In this document: positions 18,901-24,929 of the stretch, in pieces
How the letters are laid out: each line of letters begins with the position of its first letter
Position numbering within the stretch: position 1 is the stretch's first letter
From: an uncultured Schlesneria sp.
Lineage (GTDB): Bacteria > Planctomycetota > Planctomycetia > Planctomycetales > Planctomycetaceae
Reading direction: 5' to 3'
Assembly: GCA_903899985.1 (NCBI GenBank)
Contig: CAIULL010000267.1
Coordinates: 1 to 39,994 of the forward strand
DNA: 39,994 nucleotides
Notes under the pieces: generated by a model
Told to the model about the DNA's origin: nothing
What the model saw: only the letters and a program-made list of their open reading frames with translations
The model's database searches: none
Position numbers and translations under genes: made by a program

Positions 18901-18994
18901 GTGACACTGGCGTGGTCCTCGCTCGCCAGTTCTCTTGTGCTTTTTGACGATCAAAAAGAAGCCACTGGCAGCTCAAAGCAGCCGCCAGTGGCAC
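18901..18994. repeat. Family A-like twin-hairpin element (variant)
   Basis: 94 bp bounded by GTGACACTGG and CCAGTGGCAC. The left half pairs ACTGGCG with CGCCAGT, and the right half pairs ACTGGC with GCCAGT. It has the same architecture and length as the GTGCCACTGC copies but CTGG/CCAG replaces CTGC/GCAG, so it is a sub-family. It lies 21 bases after the stop of the membrane protein gene. Confidence 0.7.
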
Positions 18995-19107: not shown

Positions 19108-19136
19108 TTGACTCCAATCGGACGAACGTTTATCAT
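19108..19136 (+). promoter_or_regulatory. Promoter of the cimA leader transcript
   Basis: TTGACT (19108-19113) and TATCAT (19131-19136) are separated by exactly 17 bases, a good vegetative sigma factor promoter. Transcription would start near 19143, about 45 bases upstream of the leader ORF start codon. Confidence 0.7.
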
Positions 19137-19186
19137 CTCGGGCGTAACTCCCACTTGAGTAAAAACGTTTCTGCAAGGTTTTCTCG

Positions 19187-19279
19187 ATGTCGTTTTCGTC
19201 GTCAGGTCGAAGTCTGCATGATTCAACAGCGATGATCGCTGCTCGAATTATTGTCATTTCGATTATTGGAGACGTGTAA
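19187..19279 (+). CDS. Isoleucine-rich leader peptide of cimA
   Basis: A 30-codon ORF starts at the ATG at 19187 with AAGG eight bases upstream. Its second half reads MIAARIIVISIIGDV and stop, with six isoleucines (one ATC, five ATT) and two valines in the last 14 residues. The first half is Ser-rich and unremarkable. It resembles in design and length the ilvL-type leaders of enteric bacteria, whose translation measures charged branched-chain tRNA. It lies between a promoter (19108) and an intrinsic terminator (19315-19344), with cimA next, an isoleucine-pathway gene. The peptide is probably made only as a sensor: ribosome stalling at the Ile codons when charged tRNA-Ile is scarce. A shorter version starting at the internal ATG at 19232 is possible. 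It is too short for ordinary gene callers. Confidence 0.78.
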   Translation: MSFSSSGRSLHDSTAMIAARIIVISIIGDV

Positions 19280-19280
19280 G

Positions 19281-19327
19281 CGGCCTCGGGGTGTTATTGA
19301 ACGAATACAACACAAGCCCTCAGGTTG
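19281..19327 (+). promoter_or_regulatory. Proposed antiterminator of the cimA attenuator
   Basis: Bases 19281-19292 (CGGCCTCGGGGT) can pair with 19316-19327, which includes most of the terminator's left arm. Eleven of 12 positions pair, four as G-U, with one C-C mismatch. The left strand starts two bases after the leader stop codon. A ribosome finishing the leader would cover it and allow the terminator to form, while one stalled at the Ile codons would leave it free. The pairing was found by eye and no energy was computed. Confidence 0.5.
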
Positions 19328-19344
19328 CACCTGAGGGCTTTTTT
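19315..19344 (+). terminator. Intrinsic terminator (attenuator) upstream of cimA
   Basis: AGCCCTCAGGT (19315-19325) and its perfect reverse complement ACCTGAGGGCT (19329-19339) form an 11-bp stem with a TGC loop, followed by a run of six T. It ends 31 bases before the cimA ATG, so by default it would stop transcription from the upstream promoter. Its position after a short Ile-rich ORF marks it as an attenuator rather than the end of another gene. Confidence 0.9.
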
Positions 19345-19375
19345 CTTAATGCGAATCGATACCGAAAGCAGACTC

Positions 19376-20953
19376 ATGCCGAGAATCCAGATCTATGATA
19401 CGACACTGCGAGATGGCAGTCAGGGCGAAGGAGTCAACTTCTCGCTGCAGGATAAGCTGCTGATCACCCAGAAGCTGGACGATGTCGGCATCGATTTCAT
19501 CGAAGGTGGGTACCCACTTTCGAATCCGAAAGATGCAGAATATTTCGTTCGGGCACGTGAGCTGACGCTGAAGCACGCGAAGATTGTGGCGTTCGGGATG
19601 ACGCGGCGACGAGGCTGCGCCGCAGAAGACGATATCGGCATGTGTGCTTTGCGAGATGCCCATTCGCCGGTCGTGACGATCGTTGGCAAGACCTGGGACT
19701 TGCATGTCTTCGAAGTCTTGAACGTCGATGAAGCGGAAAACCTGGCGATGATCCGCGATTCCGTGGCATTTCTGAAGGCGGAAGGCCGCGAAGTCTTTTA
19801 TGACGCCGAACATTTCTTCGACGGATTTCGGGCGAATCCCGAGTTTGCACTTAAGACGGTCGTGGCGGCTCAAGATGCCGGGGCCAGTACGATCGTCCTG
19901 TGTGACACGAACGGTGGGCGCCTGCCGGAAGACATCGCCAAGGCGGTCGAAGCGGTTCGTAAAGAACTCAAGATTCCCGTTGGGATCCACTGTCATAACG
20001 ATTGTGAACTGGCCGTGGCGAACTCACTCACCGCCGTCGATCATGGGGCGATCCAGGTGCAGGGGACAATCAACGGAATCGGTGAACGTTGCGGGAACGT
20101 CGACCTGATCAGCGTTGTGGGGAATCTGGCTTTGAAGAAGGGCTACGACGTCCTGCTGCCAGGTGGCATGGTGCACCTGACGGAACTGTCTCGTTACGTC
20201 TACGAGATCGCCAACATGAACTTTCGGTCGGGTCAGGCGTTTGTCGGGACGAGTGCCTTCGCTCACAAAGGAGGAATGCACGTGCACGCCGTCAACCGTC
20301 TGGCATCCAGCTATGAACACATTCCACCGGAAACCGTTGGTAATCAACGACGGGTGCTGGTGAGCGAACTTTCCGGTCGATCCAACATCATCGCCAAGAC
20401 AACAAAATATCAGATCGAAAATGACAAAGTTCTGATGGGACGTATTCTGGAACGAGTGGTCGATCTGGAGAACGAAGGCTATCAGTTCGAGGCAGCGGAA
20501 GCGTCGTTTGATCTGCTCGTCCGCAAAGAGGCGGGGGTCTACGAGCCGAAGTTCCAGCGGCTGCATTACCGCGTGAATGTGGAAACGACGGCAGGACAGG
20601 GGACTATCACCGAAGCGACTGTCAAACTGCGAGTTAACTCGCACACAGAACACGTCGTGGCGGAAGGGGATGGTCCGGTGAATGCTCTCGATAATGCGTT
20701 GCGAAAAGCGCTGTCAGTGGTCTATCCGAACCTCGCCGAAATGCAACTTGTTGATTACAAAGTGAGAGTCATCAATTCAGCGGAAGGAACGGCAGCCCGC
20801 GTTCGCGTCGTGATCGAAAGTCGCGACCATACCGACGTCTGGAGTACTGTCGGTGTCAGTGAGAACGTGATCGAAGCAAGCTGGCTGGCTCTGGTCGATA
20901 GTGTGGAATACAAACTGTATAAAGATAGTGAGGTCAAGGCGGGCGTCGTTTGA
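19376..20953 (+). CDS. cimA: (R)-citramalate synthase
   Basis: Condenses pyruvate and acetyl-CoA to (R)-citramalate, the entry to threonine-independent isoleucine synthesis. The 525-residue product has the length and layout of long CimA proteins. The N-terminal HMGL-like TIM barrel has IYDTTLRDGSQGEGVNFS (6-23), catalytic and metal-binding residues, VLCDTNGG and the metal-binding GIHCHNDCELAVANS. A C-terminal LeuA-type allosteric domain (about 390-515) is normally the site of feedback inhibition by isoleucine. The ATG at 19376 gives the usual MPRIQIYDTT start; an ATG at 19349 is in frame, and further extension would run into the terminator. The alternative names 2-isopropylmalate or homocitrate synthase are less likely, given QGEGVNFS and the Ile-rich leader. 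Confidence 0.93.
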   Translation: MPRIQIYDTTLRDGSQGEGVNFSLQDKLLITQKLDDVGIDFIEGGYPLSNPKDAEYFVRARELTLKHAKIVAFGMTRRRGCAAEDDIGMCALRDAHSPVVTIVGKTWDLHVFEVLNVDEAENLAMIRDSVAFLKAEGREVFYDAEHFFDGFRANPEFALKTVVAAQDAGASTIVLCDTNGGRLPEDIAKAVEAVRKELKIPVGIHCHNDCELAVANSLTAVDHGAIQVQGTINGIGERCGNVDLISVVGNLALKKGYDVLLPGGMVHLTELSRYVYEIANMNFRSGQAFVGTSAFAHKGGMHVHAVNRLASSYEHIPPETVGNQRRVLVSELSGRSNIIAKTTKYQIENDKVLMGRILERVVDLENEGYQFEAAEASFDLLVRKEAGVYEPKFQRLHYRVNVETTAGQGTITEATVKLRVNSHTEHVVAEGDGPVNALDNALRKALSVVYPNLAEMQLVDYKVRVINSAEGTAARVRVVIESRDHTDVWSTVGVSENVIEASWLALVDSVEYKLYKDSEVKAGVV

Positions 20954-21042
20954 CGAACGTCAATATTGTTCGCCTTGTTGACAAATTCAAGATTCCGTTG
21001 GGCATCACCATGAAGGATTTATCAAAAGGGTATGGACGTGAC

Positions 21043-21140
21043 GTGCCACTGCATCGGAGTCTTCTCCGACGCAGTGTCTTCGCCACGTAAACTCGCGGTT
21101 GAAAGACACTGCTTGATCGAAGACGCTCAAGCAGTGGCAC
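21043..21140. repeat. Family A twin-hairpin element (copy 3)
   Basis: 98 bp bounded by GTGCCACTGC and GCAGTGGCAC. Left hairpin: CACTGCATCGGAG pairs with CTCCGACGCAGTG around TCTT. Right hairpin: CACTGCTTGATCG pairs with CGCTCAAGCAGTG. It is close in sequence to 1764-1860 and lies between cimA and the Uma2 gene. Any transcript running from cimA to valS must cross it. Confidence 0.85.
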
Positions 21141-21234
21141 AAGATTTTGTTCGAACCCCTTTTTTCATGATGAAAAACCCTTCATGGCGTTTCCACAAGT
21201 TTCTAAAAACCCTGTCCAGATTGGAGGATGACTT

Positions 21235-21864
21235 ATGAGCGTTGGTCTTCTTGATGATCTGCGTGACGGGGTCAATTTGAATCTGGCACCGCTGACCGTC
21301 GACCAATACCACCAGATGATTCGCGATGGAATTCTGCACGACGCCGAACCAATCGAATTGATCCAGGGAACGCTGCTCTATAAAGACCGCAGGGATCAGG
21401 CGGGAGGGATCAAGGCGCACGGATCGAGTCATCTGCGTTCGCTCAATAAATTGATGGCCGTTTTGTCACAGTGGGTCGCATCAAAGACTGCGTTTCTTCA
21501 AGTTCAGGGGCCGATTCTCATTAGTGACAACAGCGAGCCTGAACCAGACTGTTGTCTCGTTCGCGGAACACCCGATGATTTTGCCGACGCCGTTCCCCAT
21601 GGCACCGATGTGATGGCCGTGTTCGAGGTCGCCTACAGTTCGCTTTTGTCCGACCGGCGGACCAAGCAGCGACTTTACGCCAGCCAGGCCATACCGGTTT
21701 ATGTAATCGTGAATCTTCAGGACGAATTGATCGAAGTTCTTTCGGAACCTTTGGCCGATGAGCAGCGTTATCAGGCTCAGTCGGTCTATCGAACTTCTGA
21801 GACCGTCACTTTTGACGTTGATCAATTCGGACCACTTTCGTTTCTTGTCGATAGCGTGATTTGA
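21235..21864 (+). CDS. Uma2-family (DUF820) nuclease-like protein
   Basis: 209 residues with the Uma2 restriction-endonuclease-like core: an N-terminal LTVDQYHQMIRDGIL and EPIELIQGTLLYKDR with the conserved acidic residue, then SEPEPDCCLVRG, and the VFEVAYSSLLSDRRTKQRLY and PVYVIVNL segment typical of the family. Such proteins are abundant in cyanobacteria and planctomycetes; nuclease activity is assumed from fold and mostly untested. It is preceded by GGAGGATGACTT, so the ATG at 21235 is well supported. Its stop is eight bases before the valS start, so the two are probably co-transcribed, without an obvious functional link. Confidence 0.88.
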   Translation: MSVGLLDDLRDGVNLNLAPLTVDQYHQMIRDGILHDAEPIELIQGTLLYKDRRDQAGGIKAHGSSHLRSLNKLMAVLSQWVASKTAFLQVQGPILISDNSEPEPDCCLVRGTPDDFADAVPHGTDVMAVFEVAYSSLLSDRRTKQRLYASQAIPVYVIVNLQDELIEVLSEPLADEQRYQAQSVYRTSETVTFDVDQFGPLSFLVDSVI

Positions 21865-21872
21865 AAAGACAT

Positions 21873-24800
21873 ATGACGACCGAAATCCCCAAGCAGTACG
21901 AACCCGCCCAGGCTGAAGCTCGTTGGTCCCCTTTCTGGGAAGAACGGGGTGATTTCAACGCTAATCCGCCAAAGCCGGGTGATCCTCATCCTAAGCCGCC
22001 GCATGTGATCATGATCCCGTTGCCGAACGTGACGGGTGCGCTGCACATGGGGCATGCGCTCAATGGAACGTTGCAAGACCTGCTGACTCGCTGGCGCCGG
22101 ATGCAGGGTTATGAAGCCCTATGGATGCCGGGGACCGATCACGCGGGGATCGCGACTCAATCAGTCGTTGAAAAACGGATGCTTGAAGAAGAGGGTCTGA
22201 CGCGGCACGACATTGGCCGTGAGGCGCTCGTCAAAAGGATCTGGACCTGGAAGGATGCGTACGAAAAACGGATTCTCAGCCAGTTGAAAAGTCTGGGTGC
22301 AAGCTGTGACTGGCGACGGGTCCGGTTCACTCTGGACGAAGTTTGCTCGCGCGCTGTGCGACAGACGTTCTTCAAGATGTTCAAAGACGGGCTGATCTAT
22401 CGCGGCAAGCGGCTGGTGAACTGGGATACGTTCCTGCAAACTGCCGTGGCCGACGATGAAGTCTACGACGAAGAGATCGACGGTCACTTCTGGACGATGA
22501 ACTATCCGGTCATCGACGACGCGGGCCAACCGACGGGTGACCGCATTTCGTTCAGCACAACTCGGCCTGAGACGATGCTGGGTGATACCGCAGTCTGCGT
22601 CCATCCGACCGACGAGAGATACACTCATCTGATCGGCAAACGAGTTCGTATCCCCGTCAACGGGCGGCTGATTCCGATTGTGGCGGATGCACTATTGGCT
22701 GACAAAACACTGGGAACGGGCTGCGTGAAGGTGACTCCCGCTCACGATCCGAACGACTACGCCTGCTGGACTCGTAATAAAGAAGCGATGGGCGAGCCGA
22801 TCAACATTCTCAATCCCGACGGGACACTGAACGAGAACGGCGGGACATGGCAGGGTCTGGATCGACTGGTCGCACGCGATGCCGTGGTGGCCGAGATGGA
22901 AAAGCTTGGACACTTCGAGAAAGTGGAAGATCGCAAGATCCCACTCAAGCACAGTGATCGTTCAAAGACGCCTGTCGAGCCGTACCTGTCCGAGCAGTGG
23001 TTCGTGAAAATGGACACGCTGGCCCAGGCCGCGATCGATGCCGTCAATGACAACCGAGTGACGTTCTATCCCGAGCGATATCGCTCGTCATATCTCGACT
23101 GGCTGGGCGAGAAACGGGACTGGTGCATCAGCCGACAACTCTGGTGGGGACACCGGATTCCGGTCTGGTCGACCGCGTACGAAAGTGAAAGCGAAGCTCA
23201 AAAGGCAAAAGCGCAGTTTGAAGCGAATTCAAAATTCAATCCCGATTTGATTGAGTTCACGATTCACTCGGCGTCAGGTCCATCGGCTGCGACAGGTGGT
23301 GCATTGTTGCAGGCTTGCCTGGCGACTGACGATGCAGATTGGACTGCGGAAATTGAATCGCATGGATTCAAGCGGGACGAAGATGTCCTGGATACCTGGT
23401 TCAGTTCCGCCCTCTGGCCACACGCAACGCTCGGCTGGCCTGACCTCAAACACAATCCTCCGCTCGATGGCCATGCAGACCCTTCGGCGACCGGCAAGAA
23501 CGAAGTCCTGCCGTACTTTTATCCCGGCAGCGTGCTGGTGACCTCACGTGACATCATCACGTTGTGGGTTGCGCGAATGGTGCTGACGGGTCTCTACAAC
23601 ATGGGAGACGTTCCGTTCAAACATGTCTGTATTCATCCCAAGATTCAGGATGGATTCGGGCAGACGATGTCGAAGTCGAAGGGGAACGGCGTTGATCCGA
23701 TTGAGTTGATCGAGAAATATGGCTGTGACGGAATGCGGTTTACGATCGCGTCCTTCGCGGGTGAGACGCAGGACGTGCGGTTGCCGGTCGGCTACGAGTG
23801 CCCGCATTGTCAGGCAGTGATTCCTCAGGAACCACATCATCTCAAATTCAAGCCGGGCAAGCCGAAGATCAAATGCCCCAAGTGCAAGAAGGAATCACAG
23901 TACGCCACGCCGAACTACATTCCTGACGAAGGTGAACCGGTCGCGAGAATCGTGATCGAGCGCTTCGAGTTCGGTCGCAACTTCTGCAATAAACTGTGGA
24001 ACGCCGCCCGTTTCGCGATGATGAACCTGGAAGGCTATACGCCAGGCGCCGTTGATCCCGCATCGCTGGCGATTGAAGATCGCTGGGTTTTGTCACGACT
24101 GGCCACAGTTACGGATGAAGTGACGTCGCTGCTGGGCGTCTACAAGTTTGACGCAGCGACTCGTTCGTTACGTGACTTCGTCTGGAACGAGTTCTGTGAC
24201 TGGTATCTGGAAATGATCAAGCCTCGCCTGCGCGACGAAGCACTCAAGCCCACGGCTCAGCGAGTCCTTGTGGCCGTACTCGATACAACCTTGCGGCTGC
24301 TGCATCCGTTTACGCCATTCATTACAGAAGAGCTTTGGCAGCGATTGGCTGAGATCGCCCCTGAGCGAGGTCTGCCTGCCCCGACGAAATCGGCAGACGC
24401 GATCATCGTTGCCCCGTGGCCAACAGGTCTTGAGGGTTATCGAGACGCTTCACTGGAAGCCCGTTTCCAGCGACTACAAGACTTGATCGTGGCCGTCCGA
24501 AACGTGCGAGGGACATACAACATCAGTCCCGCCGTTGCCGTTTCGATCTCCGTACGTTGTTCGCCTGAGATTGCCGCTGACCTCAATCAAGTCAAGCCGC
24601 AATTCGAGATGCTGGCGAAGGCGACGTTGACCGACGCCGGACCAGGGGTAACTCGACCCAATGCCAGCGCCAGCTTTGCCCTTGGTGATGCCGATGGTTA
24701 CCTGCCACTGGAAGGCTTGGTCGATCTCCAGGCAGAAGTGACGCGTCTCAAGAAGGAAGCGGACAAGCTACGCGGATTCATCGCTGGGCACGAAAAGAAG

Positions 24801-24929
24801 CTCTCAAATCAAAGCTTCATCGATCGGGCTCCGCCAGAGGTCGTCGTCGAAGTTCGTGAGACCTTGGCGGGGCTTCAGAATCAACTTAACAGCATCGAAG
24901 ACGCAGCAAGGCAATTGTCGGGAGCATAA
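21873..24929 (+). CDS. valS: Valyl-tRNA synthetase
   Basis: Charges tRNA-Val in the cytosol. 1018 residues, longer than the E. coli enzyme (951). The class I signatures are present: PLPNVTGALHMGHALNGT with HMGH near 57-60, and TMSKSKGN near 600. The WWGHRIPVW and DVLDTWFSSALWP blocks and the C-terminal coiled coil (VTRLKKEADKLRGFIAGHEK onwards) are typical of ValRS. After the MSKSKGN region there is a two-CXXC insert, ECPHCQ (~642) and KCPKCKK (~668), which looks like a zinc ribbon and accounts for part of the extra length. I start at the ATG at 21873 (MTTEIPKQYEP). It lies downstream of cimA and Uma2 on the same strand. Confidence 0.97.
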   Translation: MTTEIPKQYEPAQAEARWSPFWEERGDFNANPPKPGDPHPKPPHVIMIPLPNVTGALHMGHALNGTLQDLLTRWRRMQGYEALWMPGTDHAGIATQSVVEKRMLEEEGLTRHDIGREALVKRIWTWKDAYEKRILSQLKSLGASCDWRRVRFTLDEVCSRAVRQTFFKMFKDGLIYRGKRLVNWDTFLQTAVADDEVYDEEIDGHFWTMNYPVIDDAGQPTGDRISFSTTRPETMLGDTAVCVHPTDERYTHLIGKRVRIPVNGRLIPIVADALLADKTLGTGCVKVTPAHDPNDYACWTRNKEAMGEPINILNPDGTLNENGGTWQGLDRLVARDAVVAEMEKLGHFEKVEDRKIPLKHSDRSKTPVEPYLSEQWFVKMDTLAQAAIDAVNDNRVTFYPERYRSSYLDWLGEKRDWCISRQLWWGHRIPVWSTAYESESEAQKAKAQFEANSKFNPDLIEFTIHSASGPSAATGGALLQACLATDDADWTAEIESHGFKRDEDVLDTWFSSALWPHATLGWPDLKHNPPLDGHADPSATGKNEVLPYFYPGSVLVTSRDIITLWVARMVLTGLYNMGDVPFKHVCIHPKIQDGFGQTMSKSKGNGVDPIELIEKYGCDGMRFTIASFAGETQDVRLPVGYECPHCQAVIPQEPHHLKFKPGKPKIKCPKCKKESQYATPNYIPDEGEPVARIVIERFEFGRNFCNKLWNAARFAMMNLEGYTPGAVDPASLAIEDRWVLSRLATVTDEVTSLLGVYKFDAATRSLRDFVWNEFCDWYLEMIKPRLRDEALKPTAQRVLVAVLDTTLRLLHPFTPFITEELWQRLAEIAPERGLPAPTKSADAIIVAPWPTGLEGYRDASLEARFQRLQDLIVAVRNVRGTYNISPAVAVSISVRCSPEIAADLNQVKPQFEMLAKATLTDAGPGVTRPNASASFALGDADGYLPLEGLVDLQAEVTRLKKEADKLRGFIAGHEKKLSNQSFIDRAPPEVVVEVRETLAGLQNQLNSIEDAARQLSGA

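Follow-up and report, generated by a model that had tools for sequence, protein, structure and literature searches.

The closest described relatives of the element reported here are the attenuators of the enteric ilvGMEDA, ilvBN and leu operons, which likewise combine a leader peptide rich in branched-chain codons, a terminator and an antiterminator. To our knowledge, these enteric operons do not contain cimA, the gene for citramalate synthase. The window analysed here, a stretch of 39,994 nucleotides (nt) from an uncultured Schlesneria sp. of the Planctomycetota (contig CAIULL010000267.1, positions 1 to 39,994, forward strand), carries such an arrangement upstream of cimA, and we consider it, with a probability of about 0.9, to be a ribosome-mediated (classical) transcription attenuator. 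The parts of the element, their conservation, the cognacy of the leader's amino acids and the pairing switch were established from sequence and computation.

Branched-chain leader peptides are known for the enteric ilv and leu operons (PMC1183508; this and the other articles given by accession are cited from excerpts). The Salmonella leu attenuator uses rare CUA control codons, as do the leuA leaders described below with CTA, and it became less sensitive when CUA was changed to CUG (Carter et al., described in PMC1183508). The ilvB-II motif of Corynebacterium comprises a branched-chain-rich upstream open reading frame (ORF) followed by a terminator, with low expression in rich medium, and the ilvB-OMG and Leptospira ilvB motifs are candidates with a similar upstream ORF (PMC10272879); these motifs precede ilvB, whereas the element described here precedes cimA. 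No Rfam match to ilvB-II or ilvB-OMG was obtained in the window, the presence of these motifs in Rfam 15 not having been checked, and inspection by eye of the DNA before the genome's own ilvB (TIGR00118 match) revealed no leader of this kind. Candidate short ORFs with runs of branched-chain codons precede actinobacterial ilvB and leuA; in Streptomyces, changed control codons of ilvB made no difference, and the LEU element consists of a pseudoknot region that pairs with the Shine-Dalgarno box of leuA (PMC1262725). In contrast to the LEU element, the locus studied here has a terminator/antiterminator switch. T-box RNAs, found at leuA in Geobacter and, in other phyla, at Ile-related genes for tRNA ligases, also sense tRNA charging at similar genes, but the window gave no T-box match: no Rfam family reached its gathering score there, and a T-box or other listed riboswitch was therefore rejected as a candidate. 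A 2008 survey reported no T-boxes in its single planctomycete genome (PMC2494555).

According to a 2010 survey, which added a Firmicutes case, amino-acid leader-peptide systems were known only from Proteobacteria and Actinobacteria (PMC2965389). Leader genes in Planctomycetes have been counted by distance only, in an article whose main text, as excerpted, does not mention ilv, leuA or cimA (PMC4833913). An earlier note on this DNA, made from the sequence alone, knew of no such system for cimA or in planctomycetes, and we likewise found no description of either among the open-licence papers listed in our searches. The mechanism itself is known, but those papers showed it neither for this gene nor for this phylum, and its presence here would widen the reach of ribosome-mediated attenuation to cimA, with which the pyruvate route to isoleucine (Ile) begins, and to the Planctomycetota. 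Apart from gene and phylum, the element differs from the enteric attenuators in a leaning of its Ile codons to ATT and, in most relatives of the window, in the lack of a protector effect. Its parts in the window, and the two genes concerned, are as follows.

19108..19136, + strand: promoter match TTGACT-17-TATCAT, sigma-70-type, for the leader transcript (10 of 12 consensus bases)
19183..19195, + strand: segment 1 (protector), partner of 19278-19290 when no ribosome is present (minimum free energy fold)
19187..19279, + strand: leader peptide ORF of 30 codons, ATG to TAA, MSFSSSGRSLHDSTAMIAARIIVISIIGDV (ORF listing; relatives)
19235..19267, + strand: control codons Ile17, Ile21, Ile22, Val23, Ile24, Ile26 and Ile27 (ribosome-position folding)
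19280..19291, + strand: segment 2, 5' strand of the antiterminator, adjoining the leader stop codon (duplex with segment 3)
19314..19344, + strand: intrinsic terminator with a 12-bp stem, a 3-nt loop and six T (-20.8 kcal/mol)
19317..19328, + strand: segment 3, common to the antiterminator and to the 5' arm and loop of the terminator (duplex, folding)
19376..20953, + strand: cimA, citramalate synthase, the controlled gene (TIGR00977, 679 bits; cut-off 450)
21861..24929, + strand: valS, valyl-tRNA synthetase, perhaps cotranscribed with cimA (profile match)

Most of these parts had been claimed in the earlier note. Its promoter was found as described, ORF and codon counts confirmed the 30-codon leader with six Ile in the final 14 codons (ATT five times, ATC once), cimA starts with the ATG at 19376, and the identity of its product as citramalate synthase was borne out by the TIGR00977 equivalog model. 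The terminator stands in its location and its six T, its stem having 12 bp rather than the 11 claimed (arms 19314-19325 and 19329-19340; TTTTTT at 19339-19344). The antiterminator pairing also holds, at coordinates corrected by one: 19280-19291 pairs with 19317-19328 in 11 of 12 positions, with a single C.C mismatch, and this duplex of segments 2 and 3 has an energy of -18.6 kcal/mol (shuffle p 0.015). A distance of 96 nt separates the leader stop from cimA, and 31 nt lie between the T-tract and the cimA start codon; an intrinsic terminator between the leader ORF and cimA is present in the window and also in relatives. The fold of 19143-19345 has a z of -5.2, with 0 of 200 shuffles equally stable.

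The folding check suggested in the earlier note, for mutually exclusive structures, gave such structures on the nascent RNA of the window: which of them forms in silico depends on the position of the ribosome. With the footprint of a ribosome masked on the RNA up to 19328, the computed probability of the antiterminator was 0.86-0.89 for an A site on codons 22-24 or 26-28, 0.55 for Ser25, 0.45 for Asp29 and 0.22 for Ile21. It was 0.00 at Val30 and at the stop codon, and 0.02 without a ribosome, in keeping with a protector role of segment 1. Stalling on most of the Ile codons would thus leave the antiterminator free to form. The same placement is seen in a set of 51 loci, in which the frequency of Ile or Val is 0.10-0.27 in the last four codons, as against 0.41-0.63 at codons 5-12 before the stop; a ribosome stalled at the latter positions would not cover segment 2, which lies next to the stop.

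This 51-locus set derives from 46 rows, from which L003 and L004 (near-identical to the window) and the poor row L064 (p 0.955) were removed and to which eight rows of the window's genus were added. In all 46 rows, for which stops and terminators were assigned by hand and which include some ORFs under the threshold given below (L014, L034, L037, L041), a strand able to pair with the terminator 5' arm lies around the leader stop codon; its starts range from -9 to +3, and since starts were sought from -9 only, many of the -9 values lie at the edge of the search. The stop-proximal strand varies together with the type of terminator (CCCTCAGG, CCCCGGAG, CCCTGAGGCCG, GCCCTACC). When segments 2 and 3 were swapped between loci, the duplexes averaged -13.5 kcal/mol, compared with -17.5 kcal/mol for a locus's own pair, a difference reached in 0 of 20000 permutations (42 loci left after nine near relatives had been dropped; relatedness was not corrected for).

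The occurrence of the element upstream of cimA was compared with that in control regions, using the window and the best 80 loci of a longer list of CimA relatives (81 in all). A leader was defined as a 10-residue stretch with at least five Ile or Val within 300 nt upstream, and the combined criterion as a leader ORF with a terminator 8-85 nt past its stop; these thresholds were fixed after a first listing had been looked at. With L038 too short, 80 cimA regions were left, those of the window and of 79 loci, and 50% of them had the Ile/Val stretch. It occurred in 3.3% of 210 control regions preceding other ORFs of at least 250 aa in the same loci, which are mechanical ORFs and not verified genes, in 3.1% of 1600 dinucleotide shuffles and in 8.7% of 80 reverse complements. 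Leader and terminator together were found in 42 of 81 cimA regions, at least one of which (L064) looks doubtful, versus 1/202 other-ORF regions, 0/405 shuffles and 1/81 reverse complements. Examples of leaders are MTTANASIIAIAIIITYPM in ZRK32, MFFATSIIAISIIIGTGKA in a Pirellulaceae metagenome-assembled genome (MAG) and ...VVVITTG in Gemmata sp. IIL30. No cimA leader was seen in Aquisphaera insulae (L046) or Singulisphaera sp. GP187 (L047), and a MAG named as the latter (L026) has one.

Alignment of the regions upstream of cimA in relatives, as proposed in the earlier note, showed that a short Ile-rich ORF and a terminator are kept despite sequence drift. In the window's genus, the cimA start with upstream DNA was readable in 14 of 15 genomes and a leader was present in 13 of these 14, in 12 by the Ile/Val criterion and in L127 (MSLLTPDRRSLKSIAIDVRKMTISIIGDR) by eye; none was found in L136, where another frame ends close upstream of cimA. 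All 13 genus members with a leader, the window included, keep a TTGAC-17-TA..AT promoter match 162-180 nt before the end of the leader. The genus of Gemmata sp. IIL30 gave a cimA match in 18 of 19 genomes and a leader in 17 of the 18, each of the 17 followed by a terminator 5' arm. In both genera the leader looks like coding sequence, because the share of synonymous differences is high in frame and low in shifted frames. Single-base codon differences in the final 12 leader codons of the window's genus were synonymous/nonsynonymous 67/65 in frame (10 distinct rows), whereas the two shifted frames, counted over all 12 rows with duplicates kept, gave 44/140 and 46/286; in the Gemmata genus the counts were 215/166 (distinct rows) versus 29/368 and 108/326 (all rows). 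For the phylum, 38 cimA matches were hand-picked among the matches listed, of which L188 was too short, and 9 of the 37 usable regions had a leader ORF with a strong hairpin at most 40 nt after it, as read by eye. Not counted were L174, which has a terminator but an ORF below the threshold, L161, whose ORF is followed by no terminator, and L168 and L187, with weak hairpins. The device is therefore widespread but patchy.

The amino acids of the leaders are cognate to the gene that follows. Over the final 14 codons, the cimA leaders of the window's genus contain 59 Ile, 29 Val and 3 Leu (12 of 14 regions; L127, which has a leader, and L136, which has none, were left out), whereas the leuA leaders contain 1 Ile, 2 Val and 64 Leu (13 of 15 regions; no Leu leader was seen in L142, and the upstream DNA of L146 was too short). 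Ile as the amino acid of the leader, as claimed earlier, is thus retained, but not Ile alone: the leaders read Ile plus Val, with more Val where valS is close downstream. Nor is the system limited to cimA. In the same genome, leuA is preceded by a separate promoter match, a leader of 14 residues, MTFESFLLLGLLTR, and a terminator of its own, and the presence of a separate Leu leader points to a wider branched-chain scheme. A Leu-rich leader precedes leuA in all eight readable cases among nine chosen genomes, mostly named strains (L203 being weak, with 4 Leu in 10; the ninth genome lacks the leuA start motif used for reading), and in 12/12 leuA regions examined of the Gemmata genus. In a broader leuA sample of 30 loci, one without the motif, at least five Leu in 10 residues were found in 14/29 and a hairpin after 9 of these, which is again patchy. 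Leu-rich leaders were recorded at L085/L002 (own genome), L096, L097, L099, L110, L118, L119, L121 and L123, and further in most of L138-L151, L199-L206 and L235-L246. The two loci mentioned above without a cimA leader, L046 and L047, have a leuA Leu leader (L201 and L203), weak in Singulisphaera sp. GP187; gain or loss of the cimA and leuA attenuators may perhaps be independent. Codon choice in the leaders is also distinct: ATT makes up 132 of 186 leader Ile codons versus 286 of 1286 in cimA, the leader being higher in 47 of 48 loci, and CTA makes up 23 of 64 leader Leu codons versus 1 of 441 in leuA (window's genus).

In the course of events that we infer, from the start of transcription and translation of the leader to stalling, read-through, a kinetic outcome and charged tRNA-Ile as the signal, transcription would begin near 19140 and a ribosome would translate the leader peptide behind RNA polymerase. 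With plentiful Ile-tRNA, the ribosome would reach the stop codon at 19277-19279 and cover segment 2, whereupon segment 3 would pair with segment 4, the terminator would form and transcription would end near 19344. When charged tRNA-Ile (partly also tRNA-Val) is scarce, the ribosome would stall on codons 22-27, and the free segment 2 would capture segment 3 before segment 4 is made, allowing the polymerase to continue into cimA and perhaps to valS. If no ribosome is loaded, segment 1 would, in the window's sequence, hold segment 2, and transcription would stop.

Several results weigh against this interpretation. Leader and terminator together are missing by the combined criterion in 39 of 81 cimA loci, and by the reading used for the phylum sample in 28 of 37 regions. 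At equilibrium, the full-length RNA favours the terminator whatever the state of the ribosome (P 0.96), which means that the switch must be kinetic; in classical attenuators the switch is kinetic. The genus alignment, of 12 rows with L127 and L136 left out and with MAFFT gaps inside the antiterminator helix in five rows, shows no significant covariation: none of the 12 terminator pairs is changed on both sides, and the antiterminator, 84.9% paired, has two double-sided changes, which is not above shuffles (127 to 307 of 500). Since column covariation was not significant on this alignment, the swap test described above was used in its place. When, more loosely, every pairing between segment 3 and RNA upstream of it was counted, the ribosome states were separated in 32 of 51 loci, and the window gave 0.51 at the stop, 0.79 at the best Ile/Val codon and 0.53 without a ribosome. 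Most relatives have no protector effect, the median antiterminator share without a ribosome being 0.66 across the 51 loci, and the antiterminator duplex has p <= 0.05 in 30 of 46 rows.

Among other explanations, it is improbable, though the least so of those considered, that the leader peptide arrests the ribosome as a nascent chain, or works through translational coupling or reinitiation, rather than by stalling at Ile/Val codons under starvation. Leaders near a main ORF have been proposed to help reinitiation (PMC4833913), and some loci keep an almost invariant in-frame 15-mer (AQGVR) in the leader; against this, the peptides differ greatly in sequence but retain their Ile/Val identity and their place ahead of the stop, as the loci retain terminator and antiterminator, and the leader stop lies well before cimA with the terminator in between. 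The presence of a strong terminator with an alternative pairing, and the nucleotide conservation of the 15-mer hairpin in some Gemmatales-type leaders, would also fit a metabolite- or tRNA-binding riboswitch, either a T-box or a new aptamer, that governs the terminator while the ORF is incidental. We regard this as very unlikely, as no Rfam family reached its gathering score in the window, no aptamer-like core common across clades was seen by eye, the shared parts being the stop-proximal strand and the terminator, and the leader frame has synonymous change and cognate codons.

That the hairpin is merely the terminator of an upstream gene, next to a chance ORF and with cimA transcribed from its own promoter, is hardly credible: short ORFs are frequent and the vicinity has other hairpins of terminator type, but the combined criterion was reached by only one of the control regions and none of the shuffles, the conserved promoter match sits upstream of the leader, and the T-tract is very close to the cimA ATG. 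We give just as little credence to the leader ORF as a small protein functional in its own right, for which the conserved frame with synonymous change might be adduced; outside the Ile/Val block there is little peptide likeness across clades, and the amino acids track the downstream gene.

The 15-mer itself is a hairpin, GCGCAGGGAGTGCGC, located upstream of cimA, always 6 nt after ATT. It is carried by L023, L024, L026 (in which the last base differs), L031, L037, L041, L218, L220, L221, L222 and L233; its 11 matches in 1.11 Mb of loci (mostly cimA and leuA) all lie upstream of cimA. Conservation at the nucleotide level suggests an RNA element beyond classical attenuation, such as a pause hairpin, an internal Shine-Dalgarno sequence or a CsrA-like site.

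Returning to the ribosome-mediated attenuator, we think it likely that attenuation is a widespread form of branched-chain control in Planctomycetota, with Ile at cimA, Ile plus Val near valS and Leu at leuA, and that it is therefore a genetic mark of tight coupling between transcription and translation in the phylum. For Gemmata obscuriglobus, the two processes have been reported to be segregated (Gottshall et al. 2014, as cited in PMC6212462 and PMC5394234), and a Gram-negative cell plan has been argued for planctomycetes (PMC5394234). Because attenuation needs a ribosome close behind RNA polymerase, the element offers a direct genetic test of this dispute, above all in Gemmata. The attenuators of the Gemmata genus would speak for translation in step with transcription, at least for these leaders, and, if true, the 17 of 18 cimA regions with a leader would be hard to square with the strict segregation claimed for Gemmata obscuriglobus, the claim concerning that species and the count concerning the genus of Gemmata sp. 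IIL30.

The genes cimA and valS form a recurrent pair: of 78 loci, 42 have valS 3' of cimA in the same orientation, 28 of them at a distance of at most 300 nt; it is absent there from 24 loci in which 2500 nt or more follow cimA, and the remaining 12 could not be decided. No promoter or terminator match was found between the two genes in 20900-21900 of the window. The share of Val in the leader was 0.56 with valS within 300 nt versus 0.25 elsewhere (p 0.0006; 18 vs 19 rows); a first comparison, before five rows with short downstream DNA were dropped, had given 0.56 vs 0.28 (p 0.0015; 18 vs 24 rows). Without seven Gemmatales-type rows, grouped by title or leader likeness, the shares were 0.44 and 0.25 (p 0.028; 11 vs 19 rows), and independent contrasts of Val share against valS gave r 0.32 (p 0.05). 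These comparisons lend moderate support to the idea that the sensor was retuned from Ile to Ile plus Val upon valS joining the unit, and leader composition that shifts with the downstream genes suggests a natural experiment in sensor retuning. Between cimA and valS, the window contains a 209-residue ORF (21235-21864) without an NCBIfam match, whose product by eye resembles a Uma2/DUF820 protein.

Elsewhere in the same genome, short-ORF listings read by eye showed no cognate-rich leader upstream of ilvB, ilvC, trpE or hisG; directly upstream of ilvC is a frame that resembles ilvH by eye. No threonine deaminase scored over the TIGR01127 cut-off in this genome (best 180.6 vs 378.75 bits; other deaminase families were not searched), and CimA may, on weak indications, be its main route to Ile. 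Terminator-like hairpins also occur elsewhere near the window's leader. On the minus strand, at 18961-18992, a 13-pair terminator-like hairpin is followed by TTCTTTTTGA, about 115 bases before the cimA promoter.

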